Virus record (IMG/VR): IMGVR_UViG_3300032309_000433
Coordinates: 1-36,802 of that record
Reading direction: 5' to 3' (one strand)
Source of the DNA: a virus
DNA length: 36,802 bases
Part shown: in pieces, positions 6,706-18,751 of the stretch
Layout: each line of letters opens with the position of its first letter
How positions within the stretch are numbered: position 1 is the first letter of the stretch
Notes under the pieces: generated by a model
The model's input: the letters and a program-made list of their open reading frames with translations, nothing else
What the model was told of the DNA's origin: nothing
Database searches by the model: none
Program-made: the position numbers and the translations under genes

Positions 6706-6713
6706 TATAAATA
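6706..6713 (+). promoter_or_regulatory. T4-type late promoter box TATAAATA
   Basis: An exact match to the T4 late -10 consensus lies in the 69-base gap before the gene at 6767. Transcription would start near 6719 and leave a leader of about 48 bases carrying a strong ribosome-binding site. The octamer alone is not rare in such AT-rich DNA, but its intergenic position supports it. Confidence 0.6.
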
Positions 6714-9007: not shown

Positions 9008-9383
9008 AGAGTGGAAACAAAAGATTAAAGAAGATGGTGCTGCCGGTATGTCGGCTTCTGCTCCAACAAATAATGCTGGTGGTGGAAATATTGCAGGTAT
9101 AGGTGTAGGGCCTGCTGGTGAGCCTGGTGTCCAACCTAAAGACAACATAACGGGACAAGGCTTTGGTCTTAGAAAAAAGAAAAAAAATCCAGTTATGGGT
9201 ATGTTGAAAAGAAAAGTTCAAGAAAATACAGATAACAATAACATCATACTAAAACAAGTATTAGATAGTTTAGATAAAACAGATTTATTCATAGATAATA
9301 TGAACTCACCTAAACAAACAGAAATTAAAATTGTTAAAGAAGAAAAGAAAAAATCTTTCAAAGAAAAATACAAATTAAAATAA
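8994..9383 (+). CDS. Small virion-associated protein with capsid-targeting-like leader
   Basis: 129 residues. MKKFKEWKQKIKEDGAAG is a T4-like head-targeting leader with predicted prohead-protease cleavage after IKE at residue 13. The next ~40 residues are Gly/Ala-rich and low complexity (GGGNIAGIGVGPAGEPG); a basic segment (LRKKKKNPVMGMLKRKVQ) and a lysine-rich C-terminal tail follow. The composition suits a head-packaged, DNA-associated or scaffold protein. It overlaps the preceding gene by 14 bases and abuts the next by one. The AGIG motif is shared with the following protein (FAGIGGFSIGS). Confidence 0.65.
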   Translation: MKKFKEWKQKIKEDGAAGMSASAPTNNAGGGNIAGIGVGPAGEPGVQPKDNITGQGFGLRKKKKNPVMGMLKRKVQENTDNNNIILKQVLDSLDKTDLFIDNMNSPKQTEIKIVKEEKKKSFKEKYKLK

Positions 9384-9949
9384 TGACTGATAAAAAAACA
9401 TTTAAATCTTTTAAAGAATTTGCAAAGGATTATTTAAAAGAATATGATGACGCTAACTTTGCAGGTATAGGTGGATTTTCTATAGGTAGTATGGATGCTA
9501 TGAAACCTATTGCAGATTTAGGAGATACAGCACCAAGAAATCAAGGTACGGGTGATAGTAGAGGTACTATGGCTGTTATGCCTTCCAAAAACATTCAACA
9601 AAAATTAAATAGAAAAACACATAAGAAAAAAGACGATACCGGCAAAACAATGACAGGTCAGCCTTTAACAAAAGTTGATACTACTCCTACAATGACCGAT
9701 ACACAAGACATAAAAGATACTACAGAACAAACAATAAAGAATTTACAGTTTGTGAATGAAAATGTTGCTAAAGAAGGAGTAAAAAATATAGAATCTTCTC
9801 AACAATCTATTGTTCATAAAATTCAGGCCGCTACTAATATGGCCGAAAGAGCTAGAGTAGCATCTGAAAGAAGCAGCGATCCTATGGTTAAACAACAACT
9901 GAATGCTGCTTATAATGTCTATAAAAGTTATATAGACAAAAACAAATAA
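9383..9949 (+). CDS. Virion-associated protein with leader and TMTGQP motif
   Basis: 188 residues. TFKSFKEFAKDYLKEYDD (residues 6-23) resembles the capsid-targeting leader, with possible cleavage after LKE. FAGIGGFSIGSMDAM follows. TMTGQPLTKVDTTPTM at residues 89-104 is almost the same as the C-terminal motif of the protein encoded at 4511-5557, indicating a shared binding or processing element or a common ancestor. The C-terminal third is helical (ESSQQSIVHKIQAATNMA). It is probably an internal head or core protein; this is inferred from sequence style and neighbours. Confidence 0.65.
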   Translation: MTDKKTFKSFKEFAKDYLKEYDDANFAGIGGFSIGSMDAMKPIADLGDTAPRNQGTGDSRGTMAVMPSKNIQQKLNRKTHKKKDDTGKTMTGQPLTKVDTTPTMTDTQDIKDTTEQTIKNLQFVNENVAKEGVKNIESSQQSIVHKIQAATNMAERARVASERSSDPMVKQQLNAAYNVYKSYIDKNK

Positions 9950-9963
9950 AAAGGAGTCAAAAA

Positions 9964-10098
9964 ATGATTAAGATGTTATTATTAATCGCAATAGGTGTAA
10001 TTATTGGTTGGTACGTTCCAAGACCATCTATAGTTGACACTATAGTAAACAAAGCTAAAGATATTATAAATAATATCAAAGCAAAGTTTATTAAATAG
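9964..10098 (+). CDS. Small single-TM membrane protein
   Basis: 44 residues: a hydrophobic N-terminal span (MLLLIAIGVIIGWYVP) followed by a basic helix. A strong Shine-Dalgarno (AAAAAGGAG) lies just upstream, which supports real translation despite the size. It opens the membrane-protein cassette before the curli-type module. It could be an accessory holin-like or pinholin-like peptide; there is no family match. Confidence 0.6.
   Translation: MIKMLLLIAIGVIIGWYVPRPSIVDTIVNKAKDIINNIKAKFIK
10065..10072 (+). promoter_or_regulatory. Possible T4-type late promoter box TATAAATA
   Basis: An exact late octamer inside the 3' end of the small gene at 9964, 35 bases before the holin candidate. A start near 10078 would give a leader of about 29 bases. 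It lies in coding sequence and could be chance in AT-rich DNA. Confidence 0.35.
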
Positions 10099-10106
10099 GT
10101 AATTAT

Positions 10107-10583
10107 ATGTTAAGTTTATTGGGTACACTATTAGGTTTTGGTACTTCAATCATACCATCTATCTTTGATTTCTTTAAAGAAAAATCAAAAAGAGCCGCTG
10201 ACTTAGAAGAATTAAAACTTCGAGCAGATCTACAAGCTAGAGGTATTGAACTTAGCATCAAACAAGTTAAAGCACAGGTCGAAGTAGAAGAATCAAAAGC
10301 AAAAGCCGTTGAAGCTGCTGGTTTATATGCTCACGATGCTTCATTAAAAGGTGGTTCTTTTGTAGAAAGTATGAGAGCTTCTCTACGACCTGTGATTACA
10401 TATGTATTTTTCTTACTTTTTGTTATAATAAAAGTATGCGCTTTAATTTCATTATTAAAATCTGGTTCTCCAGTTGTTGATGCTTTACCAAAATTATGGG
10501 ACGAAGAAACTGCAGGATTGTTTTCTGCTGTAATTGCTTTCTGGTTTGGTAACAGAGCTTTCGACAAAAAATCTAAAAAATAA
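10107..10583 (+). CDS. Holin candidate, GTA-type 3-TM family
   Basis: 158 residues. An N-terminal hydrophobic segment (LLGTLLGFGTSIIPSIFDFF) is followed by a charged coiled-coil-like helix (~25-75). SMRASLRPVITYVFFLLFV (~88-106) starts the second membrane segment, and WDEETAGLFSAVIAFWFGN (~131-149) the third, with a lysine-rich tail. The SxRPxITY...FWFGxRA signature and the topology match the 3-TM holin family of gene-transfer agents and marine phages (PF11351-type, from memory). It would form inner-membrane lesions at the end of infection. It sits in a run of membrane proteins just before csgF/csgG. Confidence 0.75.
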   Translation: MLSLLGTLLGFGTSIIPSIFDFFKEKSKRAADLEELKLRADLQARGIELSIKQVKAQVEVEESKAKAVEAAGLYAHDASLKGGSFVESMRASLRPVITYVFFLLFVIIKVCALISLLKSGSPVVDALPKLWDEETAGLFSAVIAFWFGNRAFDKKSKK

Positions 10584-10617
10584 TCATTAATATTAACAAC
10601 ATTAAAGGAAACTTTAT

Positions 10618-10686
10618 ATGGAAATACTTCTCGGAGTTTTTATAATTGTGGTTGCAGGTTATATAATAGTCGAGGATTGTCAATAA
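10618..10686 (+). CDS. Tiny membrane peptide (22 aa)
   Basis: MEILLGVFIIVVAGYIIVED plus CQ: essentially one membrane-spanning segment with an acidic end. It is preceded by a clear ribosome-binding site (AAAGGAAA) at good spacing, and its stop overlaps the next start (TAATG). Translation is therefore plausible although it is very short. It may regulate or assist the neighbouring holin-type proteins. Confidence 0.5.
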   Translation: MEILLGVFIIVVAGYIIVEDCQ

Positions 10687-10814
10687 TGACTAAAAGATTT
10701 AAAATAATACTTTCAGTTATTTTTATATTGGCTTTATTATCAGGAGCTCGTTATACTTATTCAAATAATGAGATAGAAAAAAAGGTTATAAATAGTATTA
10801 CAAACAAAAAATAA
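10686..10814 (+). CDS. Small single-TM membrane protein
   Basis: 42 residues: basic start (MTKRFK), hydrophobic segment IILSVIFILALLSG, then a charged tail. It could be a membrane-anchored periplasmic peptide or a short i-spanin-like protein, but it is too short to classify. It starts on the stop of the preceding peptide gene and is followed closely by the gene at 10817. Confidence 0.5.
   Translation: MTKRFKIILSVIFILALLSGARYTYSNNEIEKKVINSITNKK
10787..10794 (+). promoter_or_regulatory. Possible T4-type late promoter box TATAAATA
   Basis: An exact late octamer 22 bases before the gene at 10817, inside the end of the preceding small gene. The spacing would give a leader of about 17 bases. Its coding position makes chance occurrence possible. 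Confidence 0.35.
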
Positions 10815-10816
10815 TT

Positions 10817-11095
10817 ATGGATTTTTTAAAATTAGCAATAGAAGTGGGATTTCCAATAGCAGCTGCTTGTGCAGGTGGTTTTTTTGTATTTTTAACTTTA
10901 AAATTTATTTTAGCTTCAGTTACTGGTGATGTAAAAAAACTTAGCGGTATAATTGAAGCATTAGACAATAGAGTTAAAACTATGAATGCTGATGTAATTA
11001 GAATTGATACTTTAGTTAGTGCGACATTAAGAATTAAACCAGACGTAGATAGAATTGGCCGTGCAAACGGTAAGGAAGACGCTAGAAAGGATTAA
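10817..11095 (+). CDS. Single-TM/coiled-coil membrane protein, UviB/BhlA-like
   Basis: 92 residues: N-terminal membrane span (GFPIAAACAGGFFVFLTLKF, residues ~11-30), then a heptad-patterned helix (IIEALDNRVKTMNADVIRID) and a charged tail. The architecture resembles small holin-like UviB/BhlA proteins. The next gene encodes a clear paralogue (both have GFPI[AV]A followed by the membrane span and a DNR/VDR helix). The tandem pair may act as a hetero-oligomeric pore or as holin plus regulator. The function is inferred from topology only. Confidence 0.6.
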   Translation: MDFLKLAIEVGFPIAAACAGGFFVFLTLKFILASVTGDVKKLSGIIEALDNRVKTMNADVIRIDTLVSATLRIKPDVDRIGRANGKEDARKD

Positions 11096-11096
11096 T

Positions 11097-11351
11097 ATGG
11101 ATTTAGTAAAAATGATTAATCAATATGGATTTCCAATTGTTGCGGCATTTGGTATGGGATATTTTATTTACTTTGTTTGGAAATGGGTTACTACAGAGAT
11201 CAAACCAGTAATGAGTGAGACAAGTAAAACACTTATAGCATTAGTAGATAGAATAAGAATGTTAGATAATGATCTTATAAGACTTAATACTAAGTTAAAT
11301 TTGATTTTAGAGTATCAAGAAGAACAAGAAAAAAATAAAAAAGACAAGTAA
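11097..11351 (+). CDS. Single-TM/coiled-coil membrane protein, paralogue of preceding gene
   Basis: 84 residues from the ATG at 11097, which has AAGG upstream and follows the previous stop by one base; an upstream in-frame ATG at 11055 lies inside the previous gene and is less likely. YGFPIVAAFGMGYFIYFVWK is the membrane span, and ALVDRIRMLDNDLIRLNTKL the coiled coil, aligning with the preceding protein. The end is lysine/glutamate-rich. It is probably a holin-like partner. This is the last gene before the promoter of the curli-type module. Confidence 0.6.
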   Translation: MDLVKMINQYGFPIVAAFGMGYFIYFVWKWVTTEIKPVMSETSKTLIALVDRIRMLDNDLIRLNTKLNLILEYQEEQEKNKKDK

Positions 11352-11364
11352 ATCAATCAGTTTA

Positions 11365-11372
11365 TATAAATA
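11365..11372 (+). promoter_or_regulatory. T4-type late promoter box TATAAATA before csgF
   Basis: An exact late octamer in the 27-base gap between the membrane cassette and csgF. The expected start (~11378) falls at the csgF ATG (11379), so mRNA from this promoter would be nearly leaderless, and no Shine-Dalgarno is visible. Read-through from upstream would supply a normal leader. Confidence 0.55.
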
Positions 11373-11378
11373 TGTAGT

Positions 11379-11846
11379 ATGAAAGCACTATTAAAACTAG
11401 TGCTAGTAGCCACTTTTAGTTATGGTTTTTTGATAACTACTGGCACCGCAGGTCCTTTACCTGATTATAATTTCAAAAGTCCCGCTTTTAATGGCAATGG
11501 ATACAGTACACACGAGTTAACTAAGTACAACTTAGAACAAACTCGAGCGAAAGAAATTCAACAAGCTATTGAATCGAAAGCAGCAGCCGTTAAAGCTGAG
11601 GCTAAGAATACACCTATTAATCAATTCATGGTTAATTTGGAGTCTAGGATTTATGCTCAGATCAGTCAGAACTTAGCGACAGCAATGTTCGCTGATGGGG
11701 CATCTACATCAGGTTCAATGAACTTTCAAGGCAACACTATATTCTGGCAAAAGAATGGAACGACAAGTATTACATTAATGGTAACTGATACACTTGGCAA
11801 TCAGACAACAATTGAAGTGCCACTAGGACAGTTTACTTTTAATTAA
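11379..11846 (+). CDS. csgF: CsgF-like curli assembly factor
   Basis: 155 residues. A signal peptide (MKALLKLVLVATFSYGFLIT, cleavage near TGTA-G) precedes GPLPDYNFKSPAFNGNGYST, which corresponds to the E. coli CsgF N-terminus (FRNPNFGGN motif) that inserts into the CsgG barrel. The middle is a helix rich in Lys/Glu/Ala. The C-terminal beta region (TTSITLMVTDTLGNQTTIEV) matches the CsgF C-terminal sheet that ends TSTIQVSGL in E. coli. In curli biogenesis CsgF caps the CsgG pore and couples secretion to nucleation at the cell surface. The gene is immediately followed by csgG, as expected. It is somewhat longer than E. coli CsgF because of the helical insert. Confidence 0.85.
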   Translation: MKALLKLVLVATFSYGFLITTGTAGPLPDYNFKSPAFNGNGYSTHELTKYNLEQTRAKEIQQAIESKAAAVKAEAKNTPINQFMVNLESRIYAQISQNLATAMFADGASTSGSMNFQGNTIFWQKNGTTSITLMVTDTLGNQTTIEVPLGQFTFN

Positions 11847-11847
11847 T

Positions 11848-12666
11848 ATGATAAAAATATTTTTAACTATAACACTATTACTATTATCAAATTGTGCAAT
11901 ATCACAAAACGCAGGTTTAGAAACTAAACCTGAAGTTACTGAAATGAAATTACAAAAAGAGTTTGATAGTATACCAGCGCCGGCACAAAAAAAGATTACA
12001 GTGGCAGTATATAGCTTTCAAGATAAAACAGGACAAAGAAGAAACACTCCTAATATAGCAAGCTTTTCCACAGCAGTAACACAAGGAGCTGAACCATTCC
12101 TTATTAAAGCATTACAAGATGTTGGTCAAGGATTATGGTTTGATGTTGTAGAAAGAGTGAACGTAGATAACTTAATTAAAGAAAGAACTATCATTAAGCA
12201 AATGAGAGATATGTATGAAGGAGTTAATTCTAAGAATCTACAACCATTACAGTTTGCAGGTATATTGGTAGAAGGTGGAATTATAGGTTATGATAGTGGT
12301 ATGGAGTCAGGTGGTGTGGCATATAAGTGGTTAGGTATAGGACCACAATCACAATATTCAAAAGATATTGTAACAGTTAGTTTAAGAGCTATATCAGTTT
12401 CTAGTGGTAAAGTATTGGCCACTATAACAGTAAGTAAAACAATATACAGTACAGGAGACAGTATTGCTATATTAAAGGCCTTTAGAGGTGGTACAGCATT
12501 TTTTGAAGCTGAAACAGGATTGACAATCAACGAACCTACTACTCTAGCAGTAAAAGCAACGGTAGAAGCCGCAGTAGTTGAATTAATAAAAGAGGGTGAA
12601 CGTAAAGGCATTTGGTCTTATAAAACAATAACAAACAACAACGAGGAAAAAAATGAAAAACAATAA
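11848..12666 (+). CDS. csgG: CsgG-like outer-membrane curli secretion channel
   Basis: 272 residues. MIKIFLTITLLLLSNC is a lipoprotein signal with the lipidated Cys at 16. KITVAVYSFQDKTGQ, ASFSTAVTQGAEPFLIKALQ, WFDVVERVNVDNLIKER, LVEGGIIGYDS, GVAYKWLGIGPQSQY and SGKVLATITVSKTI reproduce the CsgG core blocks in order, including both membrane beta-hairpin regions. The family forms a nonameric ungated outer-membrane channel that exports unfolded curlin subunits. The constriction equivalent to E. coli Y51-N55-F56 reads here RRNTPNIASFSTAV: the Phe is kept, but Tyr and Asn are not. The last 14 bases overlap the next curlin-like gene. Identification is secure; whether it secretes curlins or only perforates the envelope is unknown. 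Confidence 0.92.
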   Translation: MIKIFLTITLLLLSNCAISQNAGLETKPEVTEMKLQKEFDSIPAPAQKKITVAVYSFQDKTGQRRNTPNIASFSTAVTQGAEPFLIKALQDVGQGLWFDVVERVNVDNLIKERTIIKQMRDMYEGVNSKNLQPLQFAGILVEGGIIGYDSGMESGGVAYKWLGIGPQSQYSKDIVTVSLRAISVSSGKVLATITVSKTIYSTGDSIAILKAFRGGTAFFEAETGLTINEPTTLAVKATVEAAVVELIKEGERKGIWSYKTITNNNEEKNEKQ

Positions 12667-13612
12667 AATAATTCCTTGCTTGGTAGCGATTTTCGTTTCA
12701 ACAACAGCATTAGCAGCTGATGATTTAATTTATATAGACCAAGTAGGATCTTCATCAGATATAACAGTAACACAAACTGGTACTGGCAATACTGTAGGTG
12801 GTACTAATGGTACTGCTGCTAGTAATAACAAAGCATCTTTGACAGGATCAGATCAGACAATTAGTATAACACAAACAGGTGATGATAATACATTAAAATT
12901 AAAAACACAAGATGGTTCAACAGGAACTAGTACAACAAACTATTCTGCTATTGGAAATAGTAATACATCAGTTATAGATACGGTTAGTACAGGTGCTGGT
13001 AATACTATTAATCAAACAATATATGGTGATAGTAATACAACTAATGTAAATATTAGAGGTAACAATGGAGCTAATTCTATTACTACTAACATTGGAACAT
13101 CAAGCGTAAATAGTAATAGTAATACAGTAGGACAAACTGTTAATGGTACTCTAAACAGTCAGACAGTATCAATTACAGGCGGTAACAGTAACACTGTAAC
13201 TATACTTCAAGGTAAAGGTTCTACTTTAACTAATGATGTTAATGTGCCGACAAACTCCACTACTAATGGAACAGGAACATTATTAGGATTAAACTCTACA
13301 ACATTTGGTTTAGGAACAACTAGTGATAAAGCAACTTCTTCAGTAACTATAATTGGTGGAAGTAATGATGTGAGGATTGGACAAGTAGGCGGAGATGCTA
13401 CAGGTAATTCAGCAACATTAGGAATTACAGGCAGTTCAAATGGTGTGAGTATTGCTCAATCAGGACTAGGACATAGTACATCTAGTTTAACATTAACAGG
13501 TGGAAGTAATACTGTTAACATAGGACAATATAGTACATCAGGAAATAATAATACAGCAAACGTTGGTGTTACAGGTAGCAACAACTTACTTAACATACAA
13601 CAAACTCGTTAG
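12653..13612 (+). CDS. Curlin-repeat protein (CsgA/CsgB-like fibre subunit candidate)
   Basis: 319 residues. A Sec signal (KIIPCLVAIFVSTTALA) is followed by YIDQVGSSSDITVTQTGTGN, the start of a long series of curlin-type strands with alternating Ser/Gln/Asn, for example QTISITQTGDDNTL, NTVNIGQYSTSGNNN and a final NNLLNIQQTR. Composition is dominated by Gly, Ser, Thr, Asn and Gln, with no tryptophan and one cysteine, which lies in the signal. In E. coli such repeats fold into the beta-solenoid of the curli amyloid. This protein is about twice the length of CsgA. It has a GAGGAA ribosome-binding site within the csgG end, tying its synthesis to the secretion channel. Likely a CsgG substrate; fibre formation is inferred. 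Confidence 0.82.
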   Translation: MKNNKIIPCLVAIFVSTTALAADDLIYIDQVGSSSDITVTQTGTGNTVGGTNGTAASNNKASLTGSDQTISITQTGDDNTLKLKTQDGSTGTSTTNYSAIGNSNTSVIDTVSTGAGNTINQTIYGDSNTTNVNIRGNNGANSITTNIGTSSVNSNSNTVGQTVNGTLNSQTVSITGGNSNTVTILQGKGSTLTNDVNVPTNSTTNGTGTLLGLNSTTFGLGTTSDKATSSVTIIGGSNDVRIGQVGGDATGNSATLGITGSSNGVSIAQSGLGHSTSSLTLTGGSNTVNIGQYSTSGNNNTANVGVTGSNNLLNIQQTR

Positions 13613-13621
13613 GAATGTTTA

Positions 13622-14425
13622 ATGAAGTTTCGTTATTGGTTAACAATAGGATTTATTTTTTCCTCGTTGTCCTGTTGGGCAGCTGATAACGAATCTTACA
13701 TAGATCAGTTAGGAGAATATTCAACTATCTATGTAGAACAAGATGGTTCAGCAAATAGATTAGGCGGTGTTGATGGACCAATATGGTATTCTAATCCATC
13801 TAAAATGTATGGCGATGGAACCAACGTTGATATAAGACAAATAGGTTCTGGCAATTATTTAAAATTTTCCATAGTTACTAAATTTGATGAGAATGATAAA
13901 TCTTCAACATTTATTGATGAAGCAAAAAGTAATACTTTTATATATTATAGTACAGGTTATGGTAATCTAGGTAATGTAAATATAAATGCTGATGGCAAAA
14001 CCGAAACATCAGGTATATCTTTATATGTTATTGAAGATGGAGATTTTAACGAAAACAATATATCAATAACCGGTCTTAGAAATTCTGTATTGTTACTTAC
14101 CAAAGGTGATGTCAATACATTTAATAGTATAACTAGTGGAGAAGATAATTTAGCATTCGCTAATATAGTAGGGTACCTTAATAATATTTCTATTACACAA
14201 AGTGCTAAAATAGGTTTAGTAATATTAGATATAAATGGTAATCAAAACACTGCCAATATAACACAATCAGGTGGTGGCGCAATAGGACATTGGACAAATC
14301 TTACAGTCAGTGGTAATCTAAACAATTATAACGTAACACAATCAGGCATTTCTGCTGATAGTTTTGTTGATATTAAAACAACAGGTAGTAATAACAATTT
14401 TACTATTAGAACAAATACAAAATAA
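13622..14425 (+). CDS. Second curlin-like exported protein (nucleator-type candidate)
   Basis: 267 residues. A signal peptide (WLTIGFIFSSLSCWA, cleavage before ADNES) leads into YIDQLGEYSTIYVEQDGSAN, closely matching the start of the preceding mature protein. Curlin-type strands recur (VDIRQIGSGNYLKF, NNISITQSAKIGLV, NTANITQSGGG, NNYNVTQSGIS), but they are less regular and include more charged and aromatic residues. Divergent repeats of this sort are found in the nucleator CsgB, so a minor-subunit role is possible. It lies 9 bases after the preceding gene, and its stop overlaps the next start (ATGA arrangement). Confidence 0.75.
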   Translation: MKFRYWLTIGFIFSSLSCWAADNESYIDQLGEYSTIYVEQDGSANRLGGVDGPIWYSNPSKMYGDGTNVDIRQIGSGNYLKFSIVTKFDENDKSSTFIDEAKSNTFIYYSTGYGNLGNVNINADGKTETSGISLYVIEDGDFNENNISITGLRNSVLLLTKGDVNTFNSITSGEDNLAFANIVGYLNNISITQSAKIGLVILDINGNQNTANITQSGGGAIGHWTNLTVSGNLNNYNVTQSGISADSFVDIKTTGSNNNFTIRTNTK

Positions 14426-15543
14426 TGAAAAAGATTATATTATTAATGTTGTTATACACCACGTCTGTTTATTCAGCAGCCATAGGAACAATTACAGAAC
14501 AAACAGCAGTACCAGGTTCTATTGTTAGAAATAAGAATACTATATCAGGCACTAAAGGTACTGGTATAGAAATGTTAGATGCTGTTAATACTACTAAAGG
14601 TAAAGTAGGCATAACATTTGAAGATGCTACTAAGGTAGAAGTAAATGAAAATTCTAAATTGGTAATAGATGATTTCGTTTATGATCCTAAAAAAGGTTCA
14701 GGTAAATTGTCAATGAAATTTGCTGAAGGTACAGTAAGATACGCTTCAGGCGCTATTGCACACAAAGATCCTAATTCAGTTAATATCAATACACCATCTG
14801 CCACTATTGCTGTACGAGGTACAGACTTTACAGCCACTGTAGATGAAGTAGGTTCAAGTACAATTATATTATTACCTAGTTGTCCTAAAGGTTGGGCAGA
14901 TATAGATAGAGATTGTAAGACAGGTATTATAGATGTAATTAATAACGCAGGTACAGTTACATTAAATAAACCTTTTCAAGGCACTAGAGTTGAAAATAGA
15001 AATACTCCACCATTAAAACCAACAATATTAAATCTTAATTTAGATACTATTAATAACCTATTGATTGTTTCTCCGCCTAAAGAAATTGCTAAACAACAAC
15101 AAGAACAAAATACAGAAAAGAACTATGCCAATCTATTACAGACGGATGTTTTAAGTGTTAAAGATTTATTAAAGGATGAATTGGCAGGCCGTAATGAGTT
15201 TGGAGATAATCCTTTAATGGAAGATTTATTATCACAAAATTTCTTAGCAAACATCTTTAGTATATTAGAACAACAAATAAAAACACAAAGAGAAACGGTA
15301 TTAAAAAGTGCTTTAGTAAAAGATAAAGATAGTCTATTACCAGACTACGATCCCAATACAGGAGTGAAGGCAAGTGTTGGTGCTACTGATGTAACATTAT
15401 GTAAAAATGATGGTAGTAATAATCAATGTATTAAAACACCAAGAAGTCAGAACAGTACAATTGTACAAGGTCAAGGGCCAGTGAGTATTCAGAATAGAGT
15501 TAATAGTGGTGGCAACACTTCAATAACGGTAATACAAAAATGA
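14425..15543 (+). CDS. FecR-domain periplasmic protein
   Basis: 372 residues. A signal peptide (KKIILLMLLYTTSVYS) precedes a FecR-type domain: GTGIEMLDAVNTTKGKVGIT, FEDATKVEVNENSKLVIDDF, and the characteristic INTPSATIAVRGTDFTATVD at ~121-140. A loop with two cysteines (LPSCPKGWADIDRDC) may form a disulfide. Residues ~215-300 are helical. The last ~28 residues (STIVQGQGPVSIQNR, NTSITVIQK) revert to a curlin-like pattern, suggesting contact with the fibre subunits. FecR domains often pair with membrane signalling proteins, and FecR genes beside CHASE2-cyclase genes occur in bacteria. Here a CHASE2 cyclase lies two genes downstream. A sensor or scaffold role is inferred. Confidence 0.8.
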   Translation: MKKIILLMLLYTTSVYSAAIGTITEQTAVPGSIVRNKNTISGTKGTGIEMLDAVNTTKGKVGITFEDATKVEVNENSKLVIDDFVYDPKKGSGKLSMKFAEGTVRYASGAIAHKDPNSVNINTPSATIAVRGTDFTATVDEVGSSTIILLPSCPKGWADIDRDCKTGIIDVINNAGTVTLNKPFQGTRVENRNTPPLKPTILNLNLDTINNLLIVSPPKEIAKQQQEQNTEKNYANLLQTDVLSVKDLLKDELAGRNEFGDNPLMEDLLSQNFLANIFSILEQQIKTQRETVLKSALVKDKDSLLPDYDPNTGVKASVGATDVTLCKNDGSNNQCIKTPRSQNSTIVQGQGPVSIQNRVNSGGNTSITVIQK

Positions 15544-16922
15544 GAAACATATTAATAAGTTTTATATTGATGTTGTTTTTTGCCAATTCAAAAGCAGAGG
15601 CCATCACCTATTCTCCTAATGGCACATCAGGATTAAATCTTGTTTATAATGGTATTGATGATGATAATTTTTATACTGTTAATCTTCCTTGGACTATAAG
15701 TTTTTTAGGAAGTAATTACGGTGCCGTGTATGTTGGTACTAATGGTTATATTACATTTTCATCAGGCAATAATACGTATTACGGTTTTTCTCCTTCCACT
15801 CCTTCAGGTCCACACATAAGCATATTTCCAGGAGACCGTTATTTAAAAAAATTATATTATGCTCAAATTAATGCTGGAACTGCTGATGCTAAATTTGTTA
15901 TTAGAGTAGAAGGTGTTGACTATTCTAATCAATCTATTATTCATATATACGAGGTTCATTTTTATTCTGGAAAATCTTACTATGATATTTACTTTGTTGA
16001 TACTCCTTCATCAGGAAATCAAAATGGTGGAACTTCTGCTATTAGTAATGGATCTTCGTATGTATTGACATATAACACAACAGAAACAACCGGCATAAGA
16101 ATTAATTCCAATGGAACTTTATATGTTGATCCTACATCATCAGGTGGTGGAGGTAGTTATACTAGTAATATTACAAACTCACAACAAACAAACATCACTG
16201 CCAATTTAGGAAGAACTACAGCTCTATCTAATGGTAATGAAATTTATATAGAACAAATAGGTAATAGTAATACAACAACAATTACTCAATCAGGCAATTA
16301 TAACAAAATTACAGATACAACAAATCAAACAGCAACTATATCAGGCAATAGTAACAACACCACTATTAGACAGAACAGTGGGACAGGTAAAAATTTAATA
16401 GATTTAAATGTATCAGGTACAGGAAATAATACTCTTAATCTTAATCAAGGTTATGATACAGATGGAACTATATCGTCAAATCAATTAGGTAACAATTATC
16501 AAAAGATAGATGTACAAGGTAGTTATAATACAATAACAACACAACAAACAAGAACTGTAGGTACAGTAGGTAATTATATGGAACAAAGTGTTAGTGGAAA
16601 TTATAACTCAATTACAAGTACACAATCAGGTGATAGTAAATTATTATTTAATTCTATTACAGGAAATAATAATACAGTAAGCACAACACAAACAGGTACA
16701 GGTGCTCAACACTATATTGATTTGACTTTAAACGGTAATGGTAACAATGCAACTGTAAATCAATCAGGCAATACACAGAACAAAGCAACCATAGTAATTA
16801 ATAATATAGGTGGTTCTGCTGGTGTAGATTTAACACAAACAGGAGGACAGACTTATAATATAACAACCAACTGTGTTACCTTAGGTGGTTGTGGTACAAC
16901 AACCGTTAGACAAGGTCAATAA
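15540..16922 (+). CDS. Adhesin-like protein: nidogen-like N-terminal domain plus curlin repeats
   Basis: 460 residues. A signal peptide (ILISFILMLFFANSKAEA) is followed by a beta-domain at ~25-200: PWTISFLGSNYGAVYVGTNG and YITFSSGNN resemble the start of nidogen-type extracellular domains. A Gly/Ser linker (SSGGGGSYTS, ~200-209) leads into curlin-type repeats to the end (IYIEQIGNSNTTTITQSGNY, NNATVNQSGN, VDLTQTGGQ). The C-terminal region has two cysteines (NCVTLGGCG). The layout suggests an adhesive or binding head displayed on an amyloid-type stalk. The start overlaps the previous stop (ATGA). The domain names are pattern-based; the modular architecture itself is clear. Confidence 0.75.
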   Translation: MRNILISFILMLFFANSKAEAITYSPNGTSGLNLVYNGIDDDNFYTVNLPWTISFLGSNYGAVYVGTNGYITFSSGNNTYYGFSPSTPSGPHISIFPGDRYLKKLYYAQINAGTADAKFVIRVEGVDYSNQSIIHIYEVHFYSGKSYYDIYFVDTPSSGNQNGGTSAISNGSSYVLTYNTTETTGIRINSNGTLYVDPTSSGGGGSYTSNITNSQQTNITANLGRTTALSNGNEIYIEQIGNSNTTTITQSGNYNKITDTTNQTATISGNSNNTTIRQNSGTGKNLIDLNVSGTGNNTLNLNQGYDTDGTISSNQLGNNYQKIDVQGSYNTITTQQTRTVGTVGNYMEQSVSGNYNSITSTQSGDSKLLFNSITGNNNTVSTTQTGTGAQHYIDLTLNGNGNNATVNQSGNTQNKATIVINNIGGSAGVDLTQTGGQTYNITTNCVTLGGCGTTTVRQGQ

Positions 16923-16930
16923 ATAGCTAT

Positions 16931-18751
16931 ATGAAATGGTTTAATCCTTGGACAGCAATTATTACTTTAGTATTAATACTTACAATAAGAGTATATGATC
17001 CTAAATTTGTAGAGAGTGTACGATTAAGATACTTTGATACTCTAATTACAAATAAAACTTCCACACAAAATAACATATACACTGTTAACATAGATGAAAA
17101 GAGTTTAGAACAGTATGGTCAATGGCCATTTCCAAGAGACGTATATGGTAATATCATTAAAGACTTATACAATCATAAAGCAGGTCTAGTAGTATTCAAC
17201 GTATTAATGCCTGAACCAGATCGTAATGGTAAAGATGCTGTGTTGGCAGAAGTAATGAAAAACTATCCTGTTGTATTAAGTAATGTGCCAGCACAACAAA
17301 CAAAGAATGAACCTAGAGTACCAGGTTCGGCAGTATTAGGGCCAGAACATCTTAATACTATTGTAAGATATCCTGGTATGATTGCTAATATACCTTTATT
17401 AGAAAATTCAGCAGTAGGTATAGGTACGACTAATACATTCCCAGAAATAGACGGCGTTAACAGAAGATTACCATTAATAGTTTCTGTAGATGGTAAACTA
17501 TATCCAAATCTAGTTATGGAAACATTAAGAGTTGCAACAAACAATTCAACTTTTCAAGTTAAGTTAAATGCTAATGGCGTGGAGAAGATGAGATTGCCTG
17601 GTGATATAGGCATCATAGATACAGATTCATTAGGTAGAATATGGATAGACTGGAGTCAGAAAAATAAATCAGTATCATTAAGTAATTTACCAGAAGATTT
17701 TAAAGGTTCAATAGTTATTGTAGGAACATCAGCAGCAGGTATAGGCAATCCTGTAGCAACAGCAATAGGGCCAGTTTGGCCACAAGATTTACAGGCCGCT
17801 GTAATAGGTACAATGATTAATAAAGTTAATATTAAAAGACCAGATTGGTCAGAGGGTGCAGAAGTAATAAGTTTAATATTATTATCTTTATTGTTATTAA
17901 TATTAAGTAGATGGGTGTATGTAGGCATAGTAACAGGAGTTGTTATGATAGTTGCTATAGTACCTTTATGTAATTATTTGTATATTCACAATCTTTGGTT
18001 ATTAGATGCAACATTAATTATTGCAGGATTAATTTTAGTAATGTTACACGCTTATGGTATAAAATTCATTAGTGAATATTTACAGAAACAACAAATTAAA
18101 AAACAATTTGAACATTACTTAGAACCTAAAATGGTTAAAAAACTACAAGAGAATCCTGAACTATTAAAATTGGGTGGCGAAACAAAAGAATTAACATTTT
18201 TATTTTCTGATATAAGAGGATTTACTCCAATATCCGAAAAGTTTCAAACCGATCCACAAGGTTTAACAAAACTAATTAACAAGTTTTTAACACCAATGAC
18301 AGAGATCATAATGAAAAATGGTGGAACAATAGACAAATATATGGGCGATTGTATCATGGCATTTTGGAACGCACCATTAGATTGTCCAGATCATAGAGAG
18401 ATGGCAATTAAATCAGCATTAGAAATGGAAGAAAAACTTAAAGAGTTAAATGACTCTGGTGAATTTGGAGATAAACTAAATATAGGTATAGGTATTAACT
18501 CAGGAAAGGCCGTAGTGGGCAATATGGGTAGTAATCAACGATTTGATTATTCGGTACTTGGAGACTCCGTAAATCTAGCAAGTAGATTGGAAGGAGTTAG
18601 TAAGAACTACAACACAACGATTGTAGTTGGAGAAGATACATACAATCATGTATCAGATAAATTCAATTTTTCAAAATTAGATGAGGTACAAGTTAAAGGT
18701 AAATCTAATAAAGTATCAATCTATTCAGTAACAAAAAAGGAGGGTCAATAA
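16931..18751 (+). CDS. CHASE2-domain transmembrane class III adenylate/guanylate cyclase
   Basis: 606 residues. One N-terminal membrane span (~8-22) is followed by a CHASE2 extracytoplasmic sensor (~25-300; RLRYFDTLI, IDEKSLEQYGQWPFPRDVYG, VVIVGTSAAG-type strand). Three membrane spans (~312-385) and a cytoplasmic class III cyclase domain (~410-600) complete it. Metal-binding Asp427 (FSDIRGF) and Asp473 (DKYMGDCIMAFW), Lys469, and transition-state Asn548/Arg552 (VLGDSVNLASR) are all present, so it should be active. Lys469 favours ATP, giving cAMP. The full sensor-membrane-enzyme layout is that of a bacterial receptor, which is unusual in a phage. It ends the curli-type transcription unit and probably reads periplasmic or envelope state, perhaps with the FecR protein. 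Confidence 0.9.
   Translation: MKWFNPWTAIITLVLILTIRVYDPKFVESVRLRYFDTLITNKTSTQNNIYTVNIDEKSLEQYGQWPFPRDVYGNIIKDLYNHKAGLVVFNVLMPEPDRNGKDAVLAEVMKNYPVVLSNVPAQQTKNEPRVPGSAVLGPEHLNTIVRYPGMIANIPLLENSAVGIGTTNTFPEIDGVNRRLPLIVSVDGKLYPNLVMETLRVATNNSTFQVKLNANGVEKMRLPGDIGIIDTDSLGRIWIDWSQKNKSVSLSNLPEDFKGSIVIVGTSAAGIGNPVATAIGPVWPQDLQAAVIGTMINKVNIKRPDWSEGAEVISLILLSLLLLILSRWVYVGIVTGVVMIVAIVPLCNYLYIHNLWLLDATLIIAGLILVMLHAYGIKFISEYLQKQQIKKQFEHYLEPKMVKKLQENPELLKLGGETKELTFLFSDIRGFTPISEKFQTDPQGLTKLINKFLTPMTEIIMKNGGTIDKYMGDCIMAFWNAPLDCPDHREMAIKSALEMEEKLKELNDSGEFGDKLNIGIGINSGKAVVGNMGSNQRFDYSVLGDSVNLASRLEGVSKNYNTTIVVGEDTYNHVSDKFNFSKLDEVQVKGKSNKVSIYSVTKKEGQ

Follow-up and report, generated by a model that had tools for sequence, protein, structure and literature searches.

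What a phage gains from a bacterial curli secretion system, and which parts of that system have to fit one another, is the question raised by IMGVR_UViG_3300032309_000433, a 36.8-kb virus contig from IMG/VR that may be a fragment (hereafter the window, meaning the whole stretch analyzed). Seven plus-strand open reading frames at 11379-18751 combine a curli-type pore and curlin-repeat proteins with a FecR-domain protein and a CHASE2 cyclase. We find that the FecR protein keeps company with the CHASE2 sensor, the curlin, and the pore, and that the adhesin head and the cyclase domain sort separately from this set. This exchange pattern suggests that pore, curlin, FecR, and CHASE2 sensor have to match one another and that adhesin head and cyclase are free of this constraint, and it turns a gene list into testable interactions.

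A Contiguous and Conserved Module

Neighboring reading frames of the module overlap or lie no more than 9 nt apart. Reading frames, Pfam matches, and conservation agree in presenting the seven genes as one contiguous unit, as the original prediction, made from the window sequence, had proposed:

11379..11846, + strand: CsgF, accessory protein of the CsgG pore (Pfam CsgF, 1.3e-15)
11848..12666, + strand: CsgG, outer-membrane lipoprotein secretion pore with a lipobox-like LSNC (Pfam CsgG, 3.2e-45)
12653..13612, + strand: first curlin-repeat protein, the putative fibre subunit, with a signal peptide and the C-terminal strand GSNNLLNIQQ (Pfam, strand patterns)
13622..14425, + strand: second curlin-like exported protein, weaker (Curlin_rpt 22.4 bits; shuffle p 0.02 and 0.33)
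14425..15543, + strand: exported FecR-domain protein (Pfam FecR, 3.9e-11, residues 54-146)
15540..16922, + strand: curlin-stalk adhesin with a signal peptide, a head (residues 21-205), and a stalk (residues 206-460; 16155-16919)
15600..16154, + strand: adhesin head, which stays with the phage backbone though the stalk differs in loci L194 and L197 (L194 alignment)
16931..18751, + strand: CHASE2 adenylate cyclase (Pfam CHASE2, 3.6e-40; Guanylate_cyc, 2.4e-26)
16964-17899, + strand: periplasmic CHASE2 sensor (residues 12-323), followed by transmembrane helices (Pfam)
18182-18727, + strand: class III cyclase domain (residues 418-599; Pfam)

A profile built from 16 phage CsgG sequences matched the solved Escherichia coli CsgG at 1.9e-72. 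Curlin_rpt exceeded its 20.7-bit cut-off in three window proteins (26.4, 22.4, and 21.1 bits; Pfam). When two curlin-type strand patterns, N-side and Q-side, were counted against 2000 shuffles per protein, the N-side pattern was enriched in the first and third curlin proteins (p 5e-4 each), with a slight excess in the second (0.02), and the Q-side pattern was enriched only in the third (p 0.0035; 0.08 and 0.33 in the other two). By these sequence measures the second curlin-like protein is the weakest gene call of the module. The absence of CsgE, CsgC, and CsgD from the window, also part of the original prediction, was borne out: a search that recovers the E. coli controls found no CsgE or CsgC match within the window, and the sole GerE (LuxR/CsgD-type) match there, at 12.8 bits, is under the cut-off.

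Related loci were gathered by CsgG from two IMG/VR scans (the first contributing the best 80 of 90), together with L194 and the cultured phages HTVC008M and Melnitz. With duplicates L001, L195, and L196 removed, this gave 135 viral CsgG loci (132 from IMG/VR, the two cultured phages, and the window). Dereplication at <90% CsgG identity left 71 loci, and 38 of these extend 9 kb or more past csgG; four loci from a genome collection were excluded, and genes past the available flank were scored absent. CsgF, the first curlin, and FecR are each present in all 38, the second curlin (the curlin gene after FecR, to which the window adhesin corresponds) in 35, and the CHASE2-cyclase in 33. The presence of CsgG is not a result, because the loci were selected by it. 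All five of the other families occur together in 30 of the 38 loci, which rules out a chance neighborhood, the reading that the original prediction had reserved for genes that rarely co-occur.

The combined module had been called undescribed, with CsgG and CsgF alone thought to be on record. This was wrong because Wittmers et al. (2022, PMC9599517), in the portions drawn on here, report CsgF, CsgG, curlin, FecR, a second curlin, and adenylate cyclase in two pelagiphage families (podo- and myo-), with metatranscriptome evidence for the module and curli genes at all 65 ocean-virome stations examined. The cultured HTVC008M and Melnitz records also contain the set; FecR and the second curlin of HTVC008M are annotated "hypothetical" and were identified here by profile. 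Melnitz record MZ577097 (L083) annotates two curlin-associated repeat proteins, FecR, and the cyclase, contrary to the statement in PMC9004378 that csgA/B are lacking. A limited literature search did not find in print the modular adhesin, the FecR tail, or the pattern of exchange within the module that we describe below. "Adhesin," "PA14," and "lectin" have no occurrence in the main text of PMC9599517, whose relevant portions discuss recombination between phages and in the host, not within module genes, and do not describe a FecR tail or an exchange inside the cyclase gene.

Exchange within the Module

In their flanks two loci, L194 and L197, stand as sisters to the window (the L194 primase is identical at 277/334 amino acids). 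In the module, DNA shared with the window (blastn, E<=1e-8) is limited to the stretch up to 11439 (61 nt into csgF), 15598-16130 (the adhesin head), and 18086-18731 (the cyclase), and the match resumes from 19081. The shared module stretches have 85-89% DNA identity and the flanks 78-90%. At the protein level L194 and the window are 46% identical in CsgF, 45% in CsgG, 36% in the first curlin, and 39% in FecR; the stalk (88/222) and CHASE2 (121/325) stand apart from the head (152/184) and cyclase (184/218). The L194 stalk is closer to HTVC008M (119/224) than to the window (86/220). Locus L002, by comparison, matches the window unbroken at 90% over 9174-16826, up to the end of the L002 contig.

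Trees of 22 chosen sequences (supports given as pairs) group L194 with HTVC008M for CsgG (100/99) and FecR (89/89, within a six-row group at 100/99), and the L194 CHASE2 falls in the same six-row group as its FecR (100/99). Its cyclase domain groups with the window (100/98); the cyclase tree carries a long-branch warning, and only this pairing, of domains 84% identical, is used. In L194 and L197 the adhesin head, too, moves nearly independently. The two loci probably descend from one recombinant lineage and therefore represent one natural experiment seen twice.

Strong conservation of the head and cyclase at unequal rates, rather than exchange, would be another account, given that catalytic domains are usually conserved, and we regard it as highly improbable. 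Head and cyclase are 85-86% identical to the window in DNA, near the 78-90% of the flanks, and beyond the csgF start, head, and cyclase no module stretch matches at E<=1e-8. Identity of other cyclase domains to that of the window is only 37-57%, also where CsgG reaches 60-71%, and the supported tree placements conflict with one another.

The wider collection points the same way. Among 44 dereplicated loci (of 65 complete), distances correlate at 0.81 for CsgG-FecR, 0.54 for CsgG-CHASE2, and 0.63 for FecR-CHASE2, with FecR-cyclase at 0.15 (Mantel p 0.004) and CHASE2-cyclase, two halves of one protein, at 0.18. Split-half correlations are 0.93 for CHASE2, 0.88 for the cyclase, 0.81 for FecR, 0.58 for CsgG, and 0.44 for CsgF. 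The correlation of CHASE2 with FecR exceeds that of the cyclase with FecR by 0.47 (bootstrap 0.28 to 0.62), and the partial correlation of CHASE2 and FecR given CsgG is 0.26 (p 0.003) in an earlier set of 32 loci, four of them from the genome collection. The sensor half (CHASE2) goes with FecR and, to a lesser degree, with the pore, and the output domain moves nearly independently.

An Exported FecR Protein with a Curlin-Like Tail

FecR proteins of the anti-sigma type have a cytoplasmic anti-sigma domain and a transmembrane segment preceding the periplasmic domain. The window protein is not of this type, because its signaling fold (about residues 20-212, with strands from residue 21) directly follows the signal helix (residues 2-15), leaving no room for a cytoplasmic domain. 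No Sigma70_r4_2 match over the cut-off, which a paired extracytoplasmic function (ECF) sigma factor would give, was found in the window, itself possibly a fragment. The AlphaFold2 model (mean predicted local distance difference test [pLDDT] 74.5) matches the cell-surface-signaling domain of PupR (6ovk; Z 15.4, root-mean-square deviation 2.5, 134 residues aligned). Residues 17-112 also resemble the cell-surface anchoring domain 5ix9 with a middling score (Z 6.9 over 73), and a profile search of solved sequences returned only an antifreeze-adhesin chain (E 0.78; the 5ix9 entry is also named antifreeze protein).

The fold is followed by a helical linker and a C-terminal part (residues 314-371) in which six strands are predicted and which ends as a curlin-like strand; the first curlin protein ends similarly (NNLLNIQQTR). 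The tail pattern was drawn from the first loci, where it fits 42/44 distinct tails and 59/712 non-module proteins, and it recurs in 25/27 tails of loci fetched later versus 23/473 background proteins. Because these proteins are homologous, this reflects conservation and not independent origins.

A Modular Adhesin

Second curlin genes were surveyed by profile in the 55 loci whose sequence extends 600 nt or more past FecR (not dereplicated; loci L197-L247 left out). The gene is present in 48: 27 encode a long N-terminal head, 20 are headless, as in Melnitz, and one is unclear. Head ends in L029, L031, L042, and L064 were set by hand. In 18 headed proteins searched with Pfam, matches over the cut-off were to PA14 in six (L027, L030, L034, L044, L047, and HTVC008M gp018) and to F5/8 type C in one (L029), leaving 11 without a named head. 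The 27 heads form three unlinked sequence groups, the largest chained via multi-domain heads; the window-type head was found in L002, L194, and L197. Heads can differ between close relatives: L033 and L036 are 99% identical in CsgG and 95% in FecR, yet one has a headed 435-residue and the other a headless 191-residue second curlin. To judge from these domain assignments, the second curlin is often an adhesin with an exchangeable N-terminal head (PA14, F5/8 type C, or unnamed) on a curlin stalk. In yeast, flocculins bind sugars through PA14/GLEYA domains. The headed curlin of HTVC008M has a solved relative over its PA14 part (6qe7, anti-sigma-I factor RsgI3; 6.9e-6), and the window adhesin had none by sequence at E<=1.

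Cyclase Output

The window cyclase has D427, D473, K469, N548, and R552, which we take to be the two metal-binding aspartates, the adenine-side lysine, and the transition-state asparagine and arginine of class III adenylate cyclases. The second adenine-side residue would presumably be position 541 (serine in the window) and is not used as evidence. Among solved proteins, the catalytic part is most closely related to adenylate cyclases. Adenylate-cyclase-type residues are present, and the predicted output is cyclic AMP (cAMP). In 21/41 cyclase domains (not dereplicated, four from the genome collection; e.g., L016, L033, and L083) the catalytic asparagine is replaced by serine, a second output type, perhaps with altered activity.

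A Late-Type Promoter Box and the Flanking Genes

Features immediately upstream of the module are as follows:

11365..11372, + strand: T4-type late promoter box TATAAATA, starting 14 nt 5' of the csgF start
10107-10583, upstream of the module: holin-like gene (phrog_3427, 8.1e-6)
10817-11095 and 11091-11351, + strand: two paralogous small proteins (phrog_18771, 1.6e-31 and 4.2e-35)

Copies of TATAAATA occur at 6706, 7090, 10065, 10787, 11365, 19030, 29904, and 36391, all eight on the plus strand. Their number in the whole window is not enriched (8 found vs 13 expected), and seven lie in intergenic DNA (5.8% of the window by gene calls), where 1.04 are expected. They likely form a T4-type late promoter set, going by position and strand. 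One box precedes the holin-like gene and another the two small membrane proteins. The box before csgF, part of the original prediction, is present and recurs upstream of csgF in L194 (position 1222) and HTVC008M (at -13). As a family-wide trait it did not hold up: the exact TATAAATA lies 5' of csgF in 8/82 loci versus 49/781 other genes. Late co-transcription of the module is suggested by this one box.

Each of the two small proteins has one hydrophobic stretch and a coiled-coil-like remainder, and neither has a Pfam or NCBIfam match. They are nearly identical to their L194 counterparts (91/92 and 84/86 amino acids) and appear by this comparison to be backbone genes outside the exchanged unit; they occur in 14 of the 38 dereplicated loci. 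They are probably the genes labeled "histidine kinase" in PMC9599517, a label that may be erroneous: no kinase match was found in the two window proteins (Pfam, PHROG, NCBIfam) or in their HTVC008M homologs (Pfam). On the 3' side the module is followed by primase and ribonucleotide reductase genes.

Variants among the other loci include large exported proteins resembling outer-membrane barrels, inserted after the second curlin or FecR gene in L030, L034, L044, L045, and L052; that of L034 has an Autotransporter domain (3.6e-19), and those of L030, L044, and L045 have no Pfam match. The CsgG of L014 (9962-11104) has a long C-terminal extension holding an SH3 domain (SH3_4, 3.1e-5, at the cut-off), and CsgG is also long, by length alone, in L016, L029, L030, L031, L041, L042, L044, L050, and L064. 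On L058, a 104-kb viral contig, the curli genes are followed (13928-17317) by a porin (Porin_4, 3.8e-22) and a pyrroloquinoline quinone-dependent methanol/ethanol-family dehydrogenase (TIGR03075, 3.1e-184, over the cut-off) with no PHROG match, unlike most tested neighbors. The latter is a possible phage-borne alcohol oxidation gene; as to phage xoxF, the term occurs in PMC8163748 in the reference list only. A 1.5-kb "Salmonella phage" record, OR851715.1, contains CsgG and is probably host DNA.

What the Module May Do

We give about an even chance to the module being a phage operon, expressed late, for remodeling the infected cell's surface, with a fibre or envelope sensor feeding cAMP. CsgG and CsgF would form an outer-membrane pore exporting the two curlins and the curlin-stalk adhesin, and the curlins would assemble into an amyloid-like fibre on the infected cell bearing the adhesin head. 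The head would bind a surface; for heads of the PA14/GLEYA and F5/8C types the ligands are probably sugars, judging from the roles of these domains. Infected cells or their remains could then hold neighboring cells or particles, and progeny would meet new hosts, in line with the "sibling capture" proposed by Zaragoza-Solas et al. (2020, PMC7029224). FecR would partner the CHASE2 sensor in the periplasm, and the curlin-like strand at the FecR C-terminus may let it contact CsgG, curlin, or the fibre base, and through such contact CHASE2 would read the state of secretion or of the fibre and the cyclase would make cAMP. The amyloid-type surface structure with signaling of the original prediction holds as an idea, with a predicted fibre and with a FecR-cyclase link that the recombination pattern backs.

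A more specific picture, which we put forward tentatively, is of a phage-built adhesive organelle with a receptor for fibre status. FecR would dock on CsgG or form part of the fibre base and report to a specificity-matched CHASE2 sensor, leading to cAMP. Pore, fibre, FecR, and sensor would make up one matched half, and the lectin-like heads, exchanged as whole domains, and the cyclase outputs would plug in as parts suited to the phage backbone or the host.

Several observations weigh against these proposals. The match of CHASE2 and FecR is not absolute: L021 and L045 carry a CHASE2 that differs from those of their relatives by CsgG/FecR, and L047, L055, and L060 pair a window-clade CHASE2 with other CsgG and FecR. 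The stalk (38 loci) correlates at 0.30 with CsgG, 0.35 with FecR, and 0.25 with the cyclase; it tracks the pore no better than the cyclase, so its place in the matched set derives from L194 and L197. Fold searches, which barely tested the FecR C-terminus, found no curlin structure for it, so the resemblance of the tail is one of sequence pattern. The fold of the window head is unnamed, and its model is poor (pLDDT 47.7, from a three-row alignment). The efficiency of export is uncertain because CsgE is absent from the window, and the authors of PMC9004378, in the portion concerned, saw no clumping of Melnitz cultures.

This last observation and the missing CsgE would suit the view, advanced for the CsgGF of Melnitz in PMC9004378, that CsgG and CsgF are a repurposed outer-membrane pore that aids or times lysis, with curlins and adhesin secondary, as would the late-type boxes before csgF, the two small membrane proteins, and the holin-like gene. 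We consider this unlikely. The presumed substrates are retained (the first curlin in 38/38 loci, the second in 35/38, and two annotated in the Melnitz record), the heads diversify, and, where the pore differs, the holin-like and small membrane genes ahead of it still belong to the backbone. A coat that excludes other phages, put forward in PMC9599517 as superinfection exclusion, would account for a variable surface protein within a conserved operon, head diversity then serving as shielding or decoys and not as cell capture, and would accommodate the barrel-like exported proteins found as insertions at some loci. Exclusion would be poorly served by late timing, if that timing is right, and PA14 and F5/8C heads suggest binding, making this reading rather unlikely. 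We think it very unlikely that the module is an uptake channel for iron complexes or larger solutes in which FecR senses iron, an idea raised in PMC7029224 and PMC9599517. The FecR domain and a CsgG without CsgE speak for it; a FecR protein without room for the cytoplasmic anti-sigma part and the lack of an ECF sigma match over the cut-off in the window speak against it, and it leaves the curlin and adhesin proteins unexplained.

Bacterial Counterparts and Known Systems

A tree of CsgG with bacterial homologs, which the original prediction had suggested, gave the phage sequences a supported clade (100/99) that contains all 20 chosen phage sequences and the collection loci L084, L085, L091, and L161, with the other 22 chosen bacterial sequences outside. 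Of 280 CsgG relatives in the bacterial genome collection, the best 80 include five with module-type FecR and four with a CHASE2-cyclase near CsgG. The sole chromosomal-looking locus with both among these 80 is L084 (Hyphomonas TMED17, a 705-kb contig with metabolic neighbors), which has CsgF, CsgG, curlin, FecR, and CHASE2-cyclase in order. Its CsgG lies inside the phage clade, as sister to viral L238/L239 (99/91), a hint of passage from phage to bacterium. Against this hint, L238/L239 resemble L084 in FecR and cyclase no more closely than the window does. The FecR tree (midpoint root) places L084 outside the phages on a long branch, and its FecR lacks the final glutamine. Module-type FecR matches 135/385 genomes of the class at E<=1e-12, and among the matches listed only the Hyphomonas genome covers nearly the whole model, the others mainly the FecR domain; within the family it is found in 1/105 genomes, Hyphomonas itself. 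Phage-type curli contigs also occur in metagenome-assembled genomes of Pirellulales, Rhodobacteraceae, Flavobacteriaceae, and Pelagibacter (L085, L086, L088, L091, L131, and L161), with L086, L088, and L131 sharing one Rhodobacteraceae bin. These are probably misbinned phage contigs, judging from phage-type small proteins in L086, L088, L091, and L131 and from tree placement in L085 and L161.

The window has the CsgG, CsgF, and curlin families in common with bacterial curli (type VIII secretion), lacks CsgE and CsgC, and adds FecR and the CHASE2-cyclase. The Caulobacter holdfast anchor HfaABD likewise consists of a CsgG-family pore, an amyloid-type subunit, and an adhesin, and is not known to include FecR or a cyclase; HfaB matches the window at 6.5e-6 and 25.5 of 300 bits, far under the family cut-off. 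With FecR, the anti-sigma regulator of iron dicitrate, the window protein shares the periplasmic signaling fold but not the cytoplasmic anti-sigma part.

The closest counterpart is the type VIII secretion module of pelagiphages (PMC9599517, PMC7029224; HTVC008M, NC_020484), which has the same order CsgF-CsgG-curlin-FecR-second curlin-cyclase and, as published, no CsgE or CsgC. It lacks the additional curlin-like gene that precedes FecR in the window, and its preceding gene is given as a histidine kinase where the window has small membrane proteins. PMC9599517 reads FecR as an iron regulator, whereas the window FecR is not of the anti-sigma type. The Methylophilales phage Melnitz (PMC9004378; MZ577097) has CsgF, CsgG, curlin, FecR, curlin, and cyclase annotated as in the window, with a headless second curlin. 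For the proposed sensor pair the nearest parallel is the Burkholderia "BiofilmReg" operon (PMC5192318), in whose available text "curli" does not appear. There a gene for an exported FecR-LysM protein adjoins a CHASE2 histidine-kinase gene, as FecR and CHASE2 adjoin in the window with a cyclase in place of the kinase output, and a regulator mutant formed no biofilm. A FecR gene beside a CHASE2 kinase in a biofilm operon supports a FecR-CHASE2 sensor pair, and the phage module offers a way into what CHASE2 domains sense and into the roles of exported FecR-domain proteins outside iron regulation.

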